From Syntrophorhabdaceae bacterium (GTDB taxonomy: Bacteria > Desulfobacterota > Syntrophorhabdia > Syntrophorhabdales > Syntrophorhabdaceae): a stretch of DNA of 60,279 nucleotides. Location: assembly GCA_026415675.1 (NCBI GenBank), contig JAOAGQ010000057.1:1-60279 (forward strand), written 5' to 3'. The translations under genes and the position numbers were made by a program. Numbering within the stretch: the stretch's first letter is position 1; each line of letters opens with the position of its first letter. The notes under the pieces were generated by a model. The model was not told where the DNA came from, did not search any database, and saw nothing but the letters and a program-made list of their open reading frames with translations. Below are positions 6,829 through 14,097 of this stretch, in pieces.

Positions 6829-6842
6829 GGTAATTAAATGCC
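6829..6842 (-). promoter_or_regulatory. candidate NrpR operator 2 (glutamate synthase leader)
   Basis: GGTA-N6-TGCC is a 14-bp imperfect palindrome, 8 bases upstream of the glutamate synthase Shine-Dalgarno. It begins exactly 22 bp (two helical turns) from the next site. Methanogen NrpR binds GGAA-N6-TTCC with the same 14-bp spacing, and its tandem operators lie downstream of the transcription start. Binding here is inference. Confidence 0.45.
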
Positions 6843-6850
6843 AGATAAAT

Positions 6851-6864
6851 GGTAAGTAATTACC
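6851..6864 (-). promoter_or_regulatory. candidate NrpR operator 1 (glutamate synthase leader)
   Basis: GGTAAGTAATTACC is a 14-bp palindrome of the form GGTA-N6-TACC. It lies about 20-33 bases downstream of the predicted glutamate synthase transcription start (near 6883). It pairs with a second site two helical turns away, like the tandem nif operators of Methanococcus. Confidence 0.5.
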
Positions 6865-6889
6865 GTCAAAAAAGTGTTGAAAGTTGTCC

Positions 6890-6918
6890 ATATTAACACT
6901 TAAGTACAATAATGTCAA
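6890..6918 (-). promoter_or_regulatory. sigma-70 promoter of glutamate synthase gene
   Basis: On the minus strand TTGACA (6918-6913) and TAATAT (6895-6890) are 17 bases apart. The predicted start near 6883 leaves a leader of about 73 bases that contains both candidate operators. Confidence 0.65.
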
Positions 6919-6952
6919 GTGAAAATTGATATTAAAAAAGATAAAAATATTA

Positions 6953-6981
6953 TTGATAATTTATCATGCAATAAATATAAT
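6953..6981 (+). promoter_or_regulatory. sigma-70 promoter of the first nrpR gene
   Basis: TTGATA (6953-6958) and TATAAT (6976-6981) are 17 bases apart. RNA would start near 6988, directly before a 12-bp palindrome. Confidence 0.6.
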
Positions 6982-6990
6982 AAAATAATT

Positions 6991-7002
6991 GGCAATATTG
7001 CC
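6991..7002 (+). promoter_or_regulatory. candidate autoregulatory operator of nrpR
   Basis: GGCAATATTGCC is a perfect 12-bp palindrome at about +3 to +14 of the predicted nrpR transcript. It shares the GGxAA...TTxCC form of the two sites in the divergent glutamate synthase leader, but is 2 bp shorter. Confidence 0.45.
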
Positions 7003-7039
7003 GACAAAAATAAAATCTTTGCCGTAAAGGGTGTGTGTT

Positions 7040-8047
7040 ATGGAGAGAAAGATAAGAAAAAAAGAAGTCGTGATATTGAACGTACTTAAAGATTCGGAAA
7101 GGCCTTTGACAAGTACGAAGATCGCAGAAAAATTAGAATTAACAGGATACGACATAAGTGAAAGGACTATAAGGCTCTATCTTAAAAAACTCGAAGAGGA
7201 AGGCCTCGTAGAGAGTAACGGTAAAAAAGGTTGTACCATCACTGAAAAGGGGATGGATGAGCTAAATGCCTCCTGGATTATCGAAAAGGTGGGATTTCTT
7301 TCGGCAAAGATAGACAGGATGTCCTATCAGATGAGTTTCGATATAAATACAGGGGTGGGTACTGTAGTCATAAATGTAACCGTTGTAGAACCTGAGCACC
7401 TTATGAAGAATATTGAGTACATACAAAAGGTTTATGCAGACGGTTATGCTATGGGACAGTTTTTAACCATTTTACAACCAGGAGAGACACTGAATCACAT
7501 AAACATACCCCCCGGGATGATCGGAATCGGTACGGTCTGTTCCATTACGTTAAACGGAGTCCTTTTAAAACACGGCATACCCACCATATCAAGATTCGGG
7601 GGTCTACTTGAACTAATAGAAAAAAGGCCTTCCAGATTTGTTGAAATCATCATGTACGATGGCACAAGCATAGATCCCCTTGAGATATTCATAAGAAGCG
7701 GTATGACCAATTATATGGGGGCAATAAAAACAGGAAACGGTAGGATTGGAGCGAGTTTCAGGGAATTCCCCGCTGAGAGTAAAGAGATGGTACAGAAAAT
7801 CGATGAAAAGATGAAGAGAATAGGGCTCGGAGGGCTAGTGGGGATAGGCATGCCCGGTCAGAGTTTTCTCGATATACCTGTAAGCGAAGGTAGAGTCGGT
7901 GCCATTGTGATAGGCGGACTGAACCCTGTTTCTGTCCTGGAAGAAAACGGGGTGAGGGCCTATTCAAGGGCCATGGCAGGTTTGATCGATTTTAACAGAC
8001 TCTTTCATTACAAGGAATTGGGTGAAAGGTTAAACGAGCTTGTTTGA
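7040..8047 (+). CDS. nrpR: NrpR-type transcriptional regulator of nitrogen assimilation (copy 1)
   Basis: The 335-residue protein has an N-terminal winged helix (about residues 1-70, with TKIAEKLELTGYDISERTIR). A single NrpR effector domain follows, with GMIGIGTVCSITLNGVLLK and DGTSIDPLEIFIRSGMTNY. In methanogens NrpR represses nif and gln genes and is released by 2-oxoglutarate. The protein is the size of a helix domain plus one effector domain. I choose ATG 7040, 9 bases after AAAGG; an in-frame GTG at 7031 has no spacing. It is divergent from glutamate synthase and 31 bases upstream of the KaiC/PEP-synthase-like gene. Sensing of 2-oxoglutarate here is inferred from the family. Confidence 0.82.
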   Translation: MERKIRKKEVVILNVLKDSERPLTSTKIAEKLELTGYDISERTIRLYLKKLEEEGLVESNGKKGCTITEKGMDELNASWIIEKVGFLSAKIDRMSYQMSFDINTGVGTVVINVTVVEPEHLMKNIEYIQKVYADGYAMGQFLTILQPGETLNHINIPPGMIGIGTVCSITLNGVLLKHGIPTISRFGGLLELIEKRPSRFVEIIMYDGTSIDPLEIFIRSGMTNYMGAIKTGNGRIGASFREFPAESKEMVQKIDEKMKRIGLGGLVGIGMPGQSFLDIPVSEGRVGAIVIGGLNPVSVLEENGVRAYSRAMAGLIDFNRLFHYKELGERLNELV

Positions 8048-8078: not shown

Positions 8079-10661
8079 ATGGAATTAAAAATATCTACAG
8101 GGATAAAAGGTCTAGACGATATCCTCGACGGTTTACGTTTTGGTGATAATGTTGTTTGGCAAACCGATGATGTAGAGGACTACAGGCACTACGTATTACC
8201 CTACATAGAAAAGGCTAAAGAGGAAAAAAGAAAAATCGTATACATGAGGTTTGCCCTTCATGACCCTGTTGTTAGTGAATCAGAGGGCATTAAGGTTTAT
8301 AATCTTAATGCAAAGGCGGGATTCGAATCCTTCACATCGGAGACGTATAATATAATTTCTCAAGAAGGCAAGCATGTATTTTATGTCTTTGATTGCCTCT
8401 CCTCCCTTCTTTCGGTCTGGGCGACGGATTTGATGATAGGTAATTTTTTTATAATCGTATGTCCTTATCTTTTCGAATTAGATACCCTGGCCTATTTTTC
8501 CATTTTGAGAGGACACCACTCTTTTAAAACAATTGCAAGGATAAGAGAAACCACCCAGCTATTGATTGAGGTATATAACCATAAAGGTAGTTATTATGTT
8601 CATCCCTTAAAAGTATGGAAGCGTTATTCGCCCACCATGTTCCTCCCCCATCTAGAGGAAAACAACGAATATATACCTGTTCTAAACAGTGTTGAGGCAA
8701 CGCAGCTATTTTCATACATACCTATGAGGGAAGAAAAGAGCGCAAAAAGGAACCTTGATTACTGGGACAGACTATTTTTGATGGCGGAAGACCTTTTGAA
8801 AAGGTCATCTGGTCCTGATGAACATAAAGAGATGATAGAAGAGTTATGTCGCATCATGATTGCCAGAGAGGGTAGGATGTTCAAGCTCGCAAGGGAAATC
8901 TTTACTCTGGAAGACCTATTGAATATTAAATCCAGGTTGATAGGCACGGGTTTCATAGGGGGCAAGACGGTGGGTATGCTCCTTGCAAGAAAGATCTTAG
9001 AGGGTGATAAATGGCTAAATTGGGACCGTTATCTCGAACACCATGATTCGTTTTATATAGGGTCTGACATATTTTATACATATATCGTTCAGAACGGTCT
9101 CTGGAAATTAAGGATGCAACAGAAAACGAAAGAAGGGTATTTCGATATGGCAAAACCCTTAAAAGAGGGTATGCTTAAAGGCATCTTTCCAGAAGAAATA
9201 AAAGAACAATTTCAACAGGTTATAGAATATTTTGGCCAATCCCCCATAATAATAAGATCAAGCAGTCTTCTTGAAGATGCCTTTGGAAATGCCTTTGCGG
9301 GAAAATACGAAAGTATATTTTCCGTAAATCAGGGATCGCCTGAAGAGAGGTATAAAAACTTCGAGGAGTCGGTAAGAGAGATTTATGCGAGCACAATGAA
9401 TGAAGACGCCCTGACATACAGGCTTCAGAGAGGTCTTGACCAGATGGATGAACAGATGGCCTTACTTGTTCAAAGGGTTTCAGGAACATATAGGAAATAT
9501 TATTTTTTCCCTGACCTTGCCGGTGTTGGTATTTCATACAACACATTTGTATGGAAAGAAGGGATGGATCCAAAGGCAGGTATGATACGACTTGTCTTAG
9601 GTCTTGGCACAAGGGCTGTAAACAGGGTGGAAAACGATTATCCAAGACTCGTTGCCCTTGATAACCCAACTTCTACCTTACATGCAGGTCTTGAGGATAA
9701 AAGAAAATTTTCCCAGCATTATTTAGATGTATTAAACATAAAAGAAAACAAAATGGAAACCGTTTCTTTTGTGGACGTGGCCAATGAGGCACTGAACATA
9801 AGGCTCGACCTTTTTGCTACCTTTGACCATGAGGCAACGGAAAGCATGAGGGCACTTGGAAAAAATAGACAGATGTGGTTACTCACATTCGATAAACTCC
9901 TTACCAAGACATCGTTTACAGGTGTTTTTCACAGGATGTTGAAAAAACTGGAAGAGGTATATGAATATCCCGTAGAGATTGAATTTACAGCAAATTTTAC
10001 ACGTTATAGCGACTATAAAATCAACCTGTTACAATGCAGGCCTCTCGAGACAAAAGGTCTGGCAAAAAGAATAGAGATACCTGAAAACATAGAGAGGAGT
10101 TCTATCCTTTTTAAAACACAGGGACACTTTATGGGGGGCAATGTTGCAAAAACAATAAAAAGGTTAATCTATGTAAATCCGTTAACATATAGTAAACTAC
10201 CCATTACGCAGAAATACGATGTGGCACGCTTTATAGGAAAGATAAACAGAACGATTAAGAAAAGGGATCAAATGCCTGTACTTTTGATTGGTCCTGGAAG
10301 ATGGGGAACCACCACCCCTTCCCTCGGTGTGCCCGTTAGATTCTCCGAAATAAACAACATGACCGCCATAGGTGAGATTGCCTATCTCGATGGTAACCTT
10401 ATGCCCGAGCTTTCATATGGTACACATTTTTTTCAGGATCTCGTCGAGGCAGACATATTCTATCTTGCCCTTTTCCCAGAGAATCCCGATACCTTTTTTA
10501 ATGTAAATTTGATGGAGGGTTTTAAGGTGGTGGTCGATATGGTATCAGAAGGTGGCGGTAACTTAAAAGATGTTGTAAAGATATACGATGTAGAGGAGAG
10601 AGAATTGAAGTTATTGGCAGATGTCTTATCCCAAAGACTCATCTGTTTTATTGAAAGATAA
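8079..10661 (+). CDS. fusion of KaiC-like domain and PEP-synthase ATP-grasp (PPDK_N) domain
   Basis: The 860-residue protein has three parts. Residues 1-210 look like a RecA/KaiC domain (STGIKGLDDIL at the start, VFYVFDCLSSLL as a Walker-B-like strand). Where the P-loop should be it reads VVWQTDDVEDY, so ATP binding there is probably lost. Residues about 290-680 match the pyruvate/ATP-binding domain of PEP synthase (IGGKTVGMLLARKIL, IIIRSSSLLEDAFGNAFAGK, NLLQCRPLETKG). The last 180 residues, with LLIGPGRWGTTTPS, are conserved-looking but unknown to me. The phosphohistidine and PEP-barrel domains are absent, so it cannot be a complete PEP synthase. It probably follows nrpR in one transcript and overlaps the convergent second nrpR by 14 bases. 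A regulatory or phosphotransfer role in C/N balance is inference. Confidence 0.7.
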   Translation: MELKISTGIKGLDDILDGLRFGDNVVWQTDDVEDYRHYVLPYIEKAKEEKRKIVYMRFALHDPVVSESEGIKVYNLNAKAGFESFTSETYNIISQEGKHVFYVFDCLSSLLSVWATDLMIGNFFIIVCPYLFELDTLAYFSILRGHHSFKTIARIRETTQLLIEVYNHKGSYYVHPLKVWKRYSPTMFLPHLEENNEYIPVLNSVEATQLFSYIPMREEKSAKRNLDYWDRLFLMAEDLLKRSSGPDEHKEMIEELCRIMIAREGRMFKLAREIFTLEDLLNIKSRLIGTGFIGGKTVGMLLARKILEGDKWLNWDRYLEHHDSFYIGSDIFYTYIVQNGLWKLRMQQKTKEGYFDMAKPLKEGMLKGIFPEEIKEQFQQVIEYFGQSPIIIRSSSLLEDAFGNAFAGKYESIFSVNQGSPEERYKNFEESVREIYASTMNEDALTYRLQRGLDQMDEQMALLVQRVSGTYRKYYFFPDLAGVGISYNTFVWKEGMDPKAGMIRLVLGLGTRAVNRVENDYPRLVALDNPTSTLHAGLEDKRKFSQHYLDVLNIKENKMETVSFVDVANEALNIRLDLFATFDHEATESMRALGKNRQMWLLTFDKLLTKTSFTGVFHRMLKKLEEVYEYPVEIEFTANFTRYSDYKINLLQCRPLETKGLAKRIEIPENIERSSILFKTQGHFMGGNVAKTIKRLIYVNPLTYSKLPITQKYDVARFIGKINRTIKKRDQMPVLLIGPGRWGTTTPSLGVPVRFSEINNMTAIGEIAYLDGNLMPELSYGTHFFQDLVEADIFYLALFPENPDTFFNVNLMEGFKVVVDMVSEGGGNLKDVVKIYDVEERELKLLADVLSQRLICFIER

Positions 10662-11639
10662 AGGAACTCAACGCATCATTAAAGCTCTGGAGTTTTGAAA
10701 ATTCGTATAAGGTCGACATGGCCATACTATCTGTATAGATACCTGATTCCTCAACGGCTGCAATGGGGTTTAGACCCCCGACCACTATCATTCCTACTTT
10801 GTCAACTCCGACAGGTATATCTAGCAACGGTTGATTTGGTTTACCAAAGATGAATATGCCATTGAAACCCTTTGTAGAGAGCCTTCTCGTTAGATGTTGC
10901 GCCTCATCGAGGCTTACGATGGGGATTTCTCTGAAGCTTGCGAGTATCTTGCCCGAGGAACCTCTAACTACACCGGATACATCCGTCATTTTGCTTTTTA
11001 TAAATACCTCAAGGGGGTCCATCGATGAACCCTCATAGCTTATAAGAGAAGTAAATCTCATCGGTTTTCCCTCTAATATTTCAATGACACCACCGTATCT
11101 TGATGAGACAGGTATGCCGGCTTTTAAAAATATACCGTTTAGGGTAATGCTACATATGGATCCAATGCCTATACATCCCTTCGACACAGCGATATCGCCT
11201 ATACGTTCTCCCCCTCGGGCTATCTTTATCCTGTTACTCATTACATACTTGGACGAAAAAACAGGAGCCATTATTCTTAAAGCATCCTTTGCCTTCTTTT
11301 CAGGGAAACAGGAGATATTTAGTATAACATTACCCTTCTGGGTATCCAGATTAAAATCGGTGAGGTATGAAAGGTTATCTATTTTGCTGATTATAAAATT
11401 CACCCTTTCAGATACAAAAGCGTGGTTTAATTCTTCCCTCCCCACCTCTGTGATGATCCTACCCTTTTTTCCCTGAACCTTTGTAAGCCCTTTCTCGTCC
11501 ATCAATTTAAGGTAATACCTGACCGTTCTCTCTGAAAGGTCAATTCCATAGGTCAGAAGCTGTTTTGCGAGCTCTTTGGAACCGAGAAGGTCCTGGTGTT
11601 TATCCAGGACCCTCAATATTGTAAACATAATCTTATTCA

Positions 11640-11640
<1 letters not shown>
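10648..11640 (-). CDS. nrpR: NrpR-type transcriptional regulator (copy 2)
   Basis: This 330-residue paralogue has the same layout as the copy at 7040. The winged helix is in residues 1-68 (SKELAKQLLTYGIDLSERTVR). One NrpR domain follows, with GCIGIGSICSITLNGIFLK and GSSMDPLEVFIKSKMTDVSG. The ATG shares its A with the TGA of glutamate dehydrogenase (TGATG), so the two are translationally coupled. It likely answers the same nitrogen signal, 2-oxoglutarate, as the first copy, or pairs with it. Two single-domain copies may replace the two-domain form seen in some methanogens; that is inference. Confidence 0.8.
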
Positions 11641-13004
<1,364 letters not shown>

Positions 13005-13034: not shown

Positions 13035-13280
13035 TTAAAAAAATAGACTCTTCAGATAAAAGCGCAGCAGATGAAAATGGTCTCTTACTTCAAGATTGTT
13101 ATGATCCATCTCCCACATGGTTTCAATCTTGTCCAGTGTTATCATTGCCTTATTTTTTAAACACTCAACATCTCTTTCATGAGTATAGGAAGATATCTCA
13201 CCTTCGTGTTCTGTTCTATTTTTGGTGGACGAGATATCTTCCTTTGGCCATAAATAAAAAATTTTTGCAGGGGATCCCAT
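13035..13280 (-). CDS. small hypothetical protein upstream of gdhA
   Basis: This 81-residue frame starts at ATG 13280 with a good ribosome site (GAGGTG, 5 bases upstream). It is the first gene of the gdhA-nrpR transcript. The sequence is polar with a His/Leu-rich end (RDHFHLLRFYLKSLFF) and an acidic-basic middle. I recognise no family. The ribosome site and operon position support a real gene; there is no homology evidence. Confidence 0.45.
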   Translation of the reverse strand: MGSPAKIFYLWPKEDISSTKNRTEHEGEISSYTHERDVECLKNKAMITLDKIETMWEMDHNNLEVRDHFHLLRFYLKSLFF

Positions 13281-13422
13281 ATTTCACCTCAAAATAGTGG
13301 CGATTTTATTCAGTAAAACTTAAAAATCGGGATTTAACAATAAGGGATTAACTGATTAAGATATAGGTTTTTATCCTATGAAAGATATAGGTGATTCCAT
13401 TAATACCTTTATAAACTGTTGA

Positions 13423-14097
13423 TTATCGGCTTTCTACCCAATAAATGGCATGCTTTATCAGTTCAGTTGAGCTATTTAGATTAAGTTTTTCTTTTATTTT
13501 TGAACGGTAAGATTCAACCGTCTTTACACTTACATGTAGTGTATCCGCTATCTGTCTCGGTTTATACCCCTGGCCTATAAGGTTGAAGACCTCAAGCTCT
13601 CTGTCGCTTAAGATTTCAACTGGCGATTTCGTCGGATCTTTTTTACCATCTATAAACTTTTTAACAATATTTTCGCTTACTTTTTCACTTATATATAGTT
13701 CACCCTTTAATACCTTTCTAATTGCATCCATCACCTTTTCTATGGCTTCCTGTTTCATTATGTAGCCTTTCGCCCCTGCTCTTAATGCACGCTCAGCGAA
13801 CAGCGTTTCATCGTGCATGGAAACCACAAGAATGAGTATATCGGGATAGCGTTCTTTTATCTTTTTTATCAATTCAATCCCGTCCAAACCTTTTAAAGAG
13901 ATGTCTATAATTGCGAGATCCGGTCTATTTTTTTTTATAGATTCAAGAGCAGTATTTGCATCCTCTGCTTCCCCGGATGTGGTCAAGTCGGGTTCCTGAT
14001 TTATAAGCTGGGAAAGGCCTTTTCTTACTATCGGGTGATCGTCTACTATAAAAATTTTGTACTTCCTTTTTTGTAATATTGTGATTCTCTTATCCAT
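13423..14097 (-). CDS. response regulator, NarL/FixJ family
   Basis: The 224-residue protein has a receiver domain (about 12-130): acidic IVDDHP, phospho-acceptor Asp in AIIDISLKGLDG, and Lys in GYIMKQE. A LuxR-type helix-turn-helix follows at about 160-218 (LSDRELEVFNLIGQGYKPRQ). GGGAGAG precedes the ATG. It is encoded 8 bases after the kinase gene, so the two form a pair. The target genes are unknown. The gap 13281-13422 holds a CGATTTT/AAAATCG inverted repeat at 13301-13329 and two GATATAGGT copies, possible sites. Confidence 0.87.
   Translation of the reverse strand: MDKRITILQKRKYKIFIVDDHPIVRKGLSQLINQEPDLTTSGEAEDANTALESIKKNRPDLAIIDISLKGLDGIELIKKIKERYPDILILVVSMHDETLFAERALRAGAKGYIMKQEAIEKVMDAIRKVLKGELYISEKVSENIVKKFIDGKKDPTKSPVEILSDRELEVFNLIGQGYKPRQIADTLHVSVKTVESYRSKIKEKLNLNSSTELIKHAIYWVESR

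Follow-up and report, generated by a model that had tools for sequence, protein, structure and literature searches.

Conserved palindromes between gltB and nrpR1 in Syntrophorhabdaceae: a predicted NrpR control region in Bacteria

Gene Organization of the gltB-nrpR1 Locus

The window, i.e., the whole stretch of DNA that was analysed, is a contig of 60,279 bp from an anaerobic bacterium whose genome comprises 2.56 Mb in 75 contigs; the nearest named relatives of its nrpR in a species-wide NrpR scan are Syntrophorhabdaceae, and the terms order and family are used here according to the taxonomy of the search tool. A gltB-like gene and nrpR1 are divergently oriented, and a second gene, nrpR2, is located behind gdhA (Table 1). 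nrpR1 and nrpR2 are the sole NrpR genes found in the genome. Their products share about 40% identity and are alike in their domains, as revealed by the Pfam matches of NrpR1 (PF08461, 4.9e-20; PF01995, 3.7e-82) and NrpR2 (PF08461, 1e-18; PF01995, 6.9e-86). NrpR1 also matches the regulatory domain of MJ0159 from Methanocaldococcus jannaschii (PDB 3nek), both in sequence (phmmer E 7.5e-29, about 27% identity over the match) and in fold (Foldseek E 3.6e-20, TM-score 0.89 by target); since the solved chain comprises the regulatory part only, DNA binding is not comparable between the two. On the basis of its domains, its sequence similarity to 3nek and its fold, NrpR1 belongs to the NrpR family, and it is likely to be the regulator of this locus.

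The identity of the GltB-like protein rests on its Glu_synthase domain and on a weak structure model (pLDDT 64), in which just a TIM-barrel fold can be recognized and whose top fold matches are a tie between glutamate synthase and IMP dehydrogenase; its glutamate synthase activity is putative. The gene is the likely target of the regulation at this locus.

The large protein encoded between nrpR1 and nrpR2 carries a PPDK_N (PEP synthase-like ATP-binding) domain and has an N-terminus that is KaiC-like in look. Of the 80 loci of the wider set (the best 80 of 417 relatives), 16 have a homologue close to nrpR, so that it can be regarded as a conserved partner.

Table 1. Coordinates of the genes and of the observed and predicted sites in the window.
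Feature	Position	Strand	Basis or remark
gltB-like gene, Glu_synthase domain, 558 aa	5134..6810	-	ORF, ATG 6810-6808; PF01645
14-bp dyad 1, gltB-proximal, GGTAATTAAATGCC	6829..6842	.	position kept in all family loci
14-bp dyad 2, GGTAAGTAATTACC	6851..6864	.	start 22 bp from dyad 1 start
Predicted gltB promoter, TTGACA-N17-TAATAT	6890..6918	-	consensus scan
Predicted nrpR1 promoter, TTGATA-N17-TATAAT	6953..6981	+	consensus scan
12-bp dyad at nrpR1 start, GGCAATATTGCC, GGCAA-N2-TTGCC class	6991..7002	.	all 24 order loci
Half-site TTGCC, 21 bp past the right arm of the 12-bp dyad	7019..7023	+	family conservation
nrpR1, winged HTH and one NrpR regulatory domain	7040..8047	+	ATG 7040; PF08461, PF01995; 3nek match
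PPDK_N-domain protein	8079-10661	+	
nrpR2, behind gdhA	10648-11640	-	winged HTH and one NrpR regulatory domain
Small ORF, 81 aa, just upstream of gdhA	13035-13280	-	no Pfam match
CCTATAT and CCCTTATTG block	~13330-13420		repeated in family relatives
LuxR-type response regulator	13423-14097	-	

Structure and Conservation of the Intergenic Palindromes

Relative to the predicted transcription starts, the palindromes of the gltB leader lie at about +20 to +55 and that of nrpR1 at about +4 to +15. Their sequence patterns are not unusual in number. GGTA-N6-TRCC has six matches in the window versus 2.65 expected, and the genome-wide pattern counts do not exceed those of the reversed control (170 versus 172, 7 versus 10, and 10 versus 20). 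When two mismatches are allowed, the tandem pattern equals the control level, the exact matches among those listed being those of gltB-nrpR, and the rest of the genome has no more strict matches than chance predicts, nearly all of them inside coding sequence. Since lone sites occur at chance level in both the window and the genome, and loose tandems at the control level, the case for these elements rests on their conservation and position. Two individual matches were set aside: the 12-bp match at 11991, which falls within gdhA, and one in the genome that lies 18 bp ahead of a LacI-type gene (L229) and is probably that regulator's own site.

An NrpR match was retrieved from 35 of the 46 genomes of the order, and readable intergenic regions with nrpR1 divergent to gltB were available for 24 order loci, 21 of them from the family of the window. 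The sequence-only reading had described two 14-bp palindromes, 22 bp apart, in the gltB leader; they are present in the window, and two such dyads with exactly the same spacing precede gltB in all 21 family loci and in the genomes G005 and G014, i.e., in 23/23 family genomes with a readable region. Each of the three genomes of a second family shows one clear 14-bp dyad. The 12-bp dyad at the nrpR start is found in all the order loci (24/24), and in 20/21 family loci it is followed, 21-22 bp further on, by the half-site TTGCC. In an alignment of 19 family loci, the dyad arms are much more conserved (0.88-0.99) than the spacers (0.55-0.61) and the DNA between sites (0.57-0.58). Conservation of the palindromes in close relatives, on which the earlier proposal had been staked, thus extends across the family and the order.

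In most order loci the -10 element of nrpR sits 6-12 bp ahead of the 12-bp dyad, a close position that suits a repressor. For gltB, the picture differs between genera: in one of them (L008-L011, L014, L015) the TTGACA nearest to the gltB sites is so close that the -10 element would overlap a site, so that the sites of this gene do not always lie directly after the start.

As for the extent of the regulon, the recurring partner genes of nrpR are gltB or gdhA. The motif recurs in relatives at gltB and nrpR, and no conserved sites were found at the glnA and PII loci sampled in the order, amtB being covered where no more than about 1.5 kb separates it from them; the wider regulon once proposed, including glnA and amtB, therefore finds no counterpart there. 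With glnA, PII and gdhA-nrpR2 having yielded no sites of this kind, the regulon looks local, and the best reading of these sequences is a predicted regulon limited to gltB and nrpR1.

Distribution of the Palindromes Outside the Order

A scan with the NrpR alignment of one genome per species (84,980 species) yielded 417 relatives, the best 80 of which were kept. Their titles include Desulfobulbaceae, Planctomycetes, Victivallales, Elusimicrobia, Spirochaetales, Hydrogenedentota, Nitrospiraceae and others, although many are metagenome assemblies, so that individual titles may be wrong. In 74 of these best 80 loci nrpR adjoins gltB or gdhA (gltB divergent in 46, gdhA divergent in 18, either gene nearby in 10), and five of the remaining six have little upstream DNA; being the closest of 417 and mutually related, these loci do not represent independent trials.

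Motif models trained on the order only were then applied to the 450 bp upstream of nrpR in 64 loci outside the order. The 14-bp dyad was recovered in 45/64 upstream regions, versus 0 in nrpR coding sequence and 0.4 in shuffles, and the 12-bp dyad in 50/64, versus 0 and 0.2, respectively. The resulting bacterial consensus is GGCAA-N4-TTGCC for the 14-bp class and GGCAA-N2-TTGCC for the 12-bp class, and the GGTA (GGTAA) of the window is a local variant of it. Among 20 more divergent nrpR genes of the phylum, several of which sit in nrpR-gdhA or nrpR-gltB operons, 15 have a strong upstream GGCAA dyad of either class, the others having weaker ones.

Tandems with the 22-bp spacing also occur outside the family (L158, L159, L160, L165, L176, L274), together with other spacings, i.e., 32 bp (L161, L164), 44 bp (L163) and 23 bp (L218). 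Spacings of 22, 32 and 44 bp correspond to about two, three and four helical turns, as might be expected for adjacent proteins bound to the same DNA face. Separately, L204, L220, L222 and L224 each carry a pair of 12-bp dyads upstream of nrpR, with a spacing of exactly 42 bp, or about four helical turns.

Comparison with the NrpR Systems of Methanogens

NrpR has been studied mainly in archaea and was worked out in methanogens. The Methanococcus protein has a two-domain build, with two regulatory domains, whereas NrpR1 has one; in Methanosarcina mazei, NrpRII is not known to have the HTH motif, which both NrpR proteins of the window carry. The presence of two NrpR proteins per genome is shared with M. 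mazei, whose NrpRI and NrpRII are cited in PMC11456600 and PMC11957540.

According to PMC2723118, which cites Lie and Leigh 2003 and Lie et al. 2005, the NrpR operator of Methanococcus maripaludis is GGAA-N6-TTCC; a paper whose title mentions "two operators" for nif is also cited there. The two systems share the HTH and NrpR domain family, palindromic 14-bp operators and a nitrogen-assimilation target, and they differ in several respects. The host is here a bacterium with sigma-70-like promoters, a 12-bp class of sites and a half-site are additional, and the targets are gltB or gdhA together with nrpR, rather than nif, glnA and glnK-amtB. GGAA-N6-TTCC was neither among the matches listed for the gltB-nrpR1 intergenic region nor within the 900 bp upstream of the 20 divergent nrpR genes, and no conserved sites were found at the glnA and PII loci sampled in the order.

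These data refine the earlier description in three respects, one of them the wider regulon dealt with above. A changed recognition base had been suggested, and the third base does differ from that of the GGAA quoted in PMC2723118, both in the bacterial GGCAA and in the GGTAA of the window; it is GGCAA, however, that represents the consensus, GGTA being local. The related site recognized at the nrpR start is indeed a palindrome there, but it is a 12-bp dyad with a spacer shorter by 2 bp, followed by a half-site that had gone unreported. The layout had also been equated with that of Methanococcus: the tandem arrangement is seen in the family, but the position just downstream of the start varies between genera and refers to predicted starts.

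Assignment of the Sites and Alternative Interpretations

Palindromes that lie beside nrpR and a glutamate gene and are conserved far beyond chance very probably represent a predicted NrpR switch. The core of the original proposal, namely NrpR-type operators at bacterial gltB and nrpR, finds strong support in sequence footprints in the order and in many phyla, its details being corrected as described above. Several observations suggest that the sites go with NrpR1. Both site classes are present in the second-family genomes in which NrpR1 is the only NrpR detected, and no GGCAA-type sites were found in the gdhA-nrpR2 leaders, including those of genomes with NrpR2 only. The distribution of gltB points the same way: among 22 genomes of the order checked, a close gltB (above 80% identity) was found only in G005 and G014, and in genomes without nrpR1 the homologue reaches at most 40-46% identity. 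Two facts speak against assigning the sites to NrpR1. In G005 (L035, L138) gltB and all three dyads are intact, and nrpR1 is reduced to its start and a 50-residue C-terminal remnant; either nrpR1 has been lost recently or NrpR2 is standing in. Moreover, it would be unusual for a single protein to recognize sites of two spacer lengths.

The retention of NrpR2 and of all the sites in G005, together with the approximately 40% identity and the identical domain set of the two proteins, is what might favor another regulator, most plausibly NrpR2, as the protein that binds these sites instead of NrpR1. We consider this very unlikely, given that the sites are kept where NrpR1 is the only NrpR detected, are absent from the gdhA-nrpR2 leaders even in NrpR2-only genomes, and accompany nrpR genes in many phyla regardless of which gene is the partner. 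The dyads might also work as RNA, forming a structured gltB mRNA leader that hides the Shine-Dalgarno sequence, and the leader of the window does outperform shuffled sequences in folding (z about -2.5 to -3.5), its Shine-Dalgarno being paired. Among relatives, however, values for this pairing extend from 0.04 to 0.96 and weak z-scores are common, an Rfam search gave no match, and in other taxa the motif lies upstream of likely promoters and so would not be transcribed with nrpR. With a fold that is not conserved and no Rfam family, this interpretation was rejected as extremely improbable.

A different question is whether NrpR1, if it does bind these operators, is chiefly an activator or a dual, looping regulator bridging the gltB and nrpR sites. 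In many distant taxa the 12-bp dyad next to nrpR precedes the likely promoter; in Desulfobulbaceae and elsewhere it sits just ahead of a likely -35 element of nrpR, and in L177, L180, L181, L184 and others it is upstream of the likely -35. Such a position is hard to read as simple repression of nrpR and makes a dual or looping role possible there; within the order, the distance between the gltB and nrpR sites is roughly constant (about 130-145 bp). Such distances vary, however, by as much as roughly half a helical turn, and are thus not strictly phased. In the order, the nrpR dyad closely following the -10 element and the gltB dyads in the leader are both in repressor positions, and the studied homologues are repressors. 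An activating or looping role is therefore possible but less likely, and we regard it as rather unlikely overall.

As regards nrpR2, a block with CCTATAT and CCCTTATTG is repeated in family relatives between the small pre-gdhA ORF and the LuxR-type response regulator, and it may be where the gdhA-nrpR2 operon is actually controlled. ORFs similar to the small one precede gdhA in several family genomes (L242, L245-L250).

Taken as a whole, the gltB-nrpR1 intergenic region is probably a two-sided NrpR1 control region, with predicted repression of both genes and release by 2-oxoglutarate. The NrpR of methanogens is a repressor that dissociates from its operator as 2-oxoglutarate rises (PMC11957540, PMC4902934), and by analogy NrpR1 would most likely repress gltB and itself until freed by the same metabolite. 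When nitrogen is plentiful, NrpR1 would bind the two 14-bp dyads immediately beyond the gltB promoter, with the bound proteins adjacent on the same DNA face at a distance of two helical turns, as well as the 12-bp dyad at its own start, perhaps together with the half-site, so that gltB and nrpR1 would be repressed; under nitrogen limitation, high 2-oxoglutarate would release NrpR1 and glutamate formation would be switched on.

Biological Significance

The occurrence of NrpR in certain Bacteria was already mentioned in a 2009 paper (PMC2723118). No description of a bacterial NrpR operator or regulon was found in the open-access literature searched. We lean, with some reserve, towards the wider view that in many phyla NrpR might serve as a local switch devoted to the formation of glutamate (by gltB or gdhA), one protein reading both dyad spacings (N4 as well as N2) and an array of 22 bp. 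The consensus and the gene partners make bacterial NrpR directly testable with purified protein and short DNA. If the proposal is true, Bacteria would possess a 2-oxoglutarate-responsive nitrogen control distinct from the classical circuits of PII and NtrC, and its recognition sequence would be unlike the known Methanococcus one. It would show a regulator keeping its job at the junction of carbon and nitrogen metabolism across two domains of life, between which its DNA sequence, promoters and targets would have changed.
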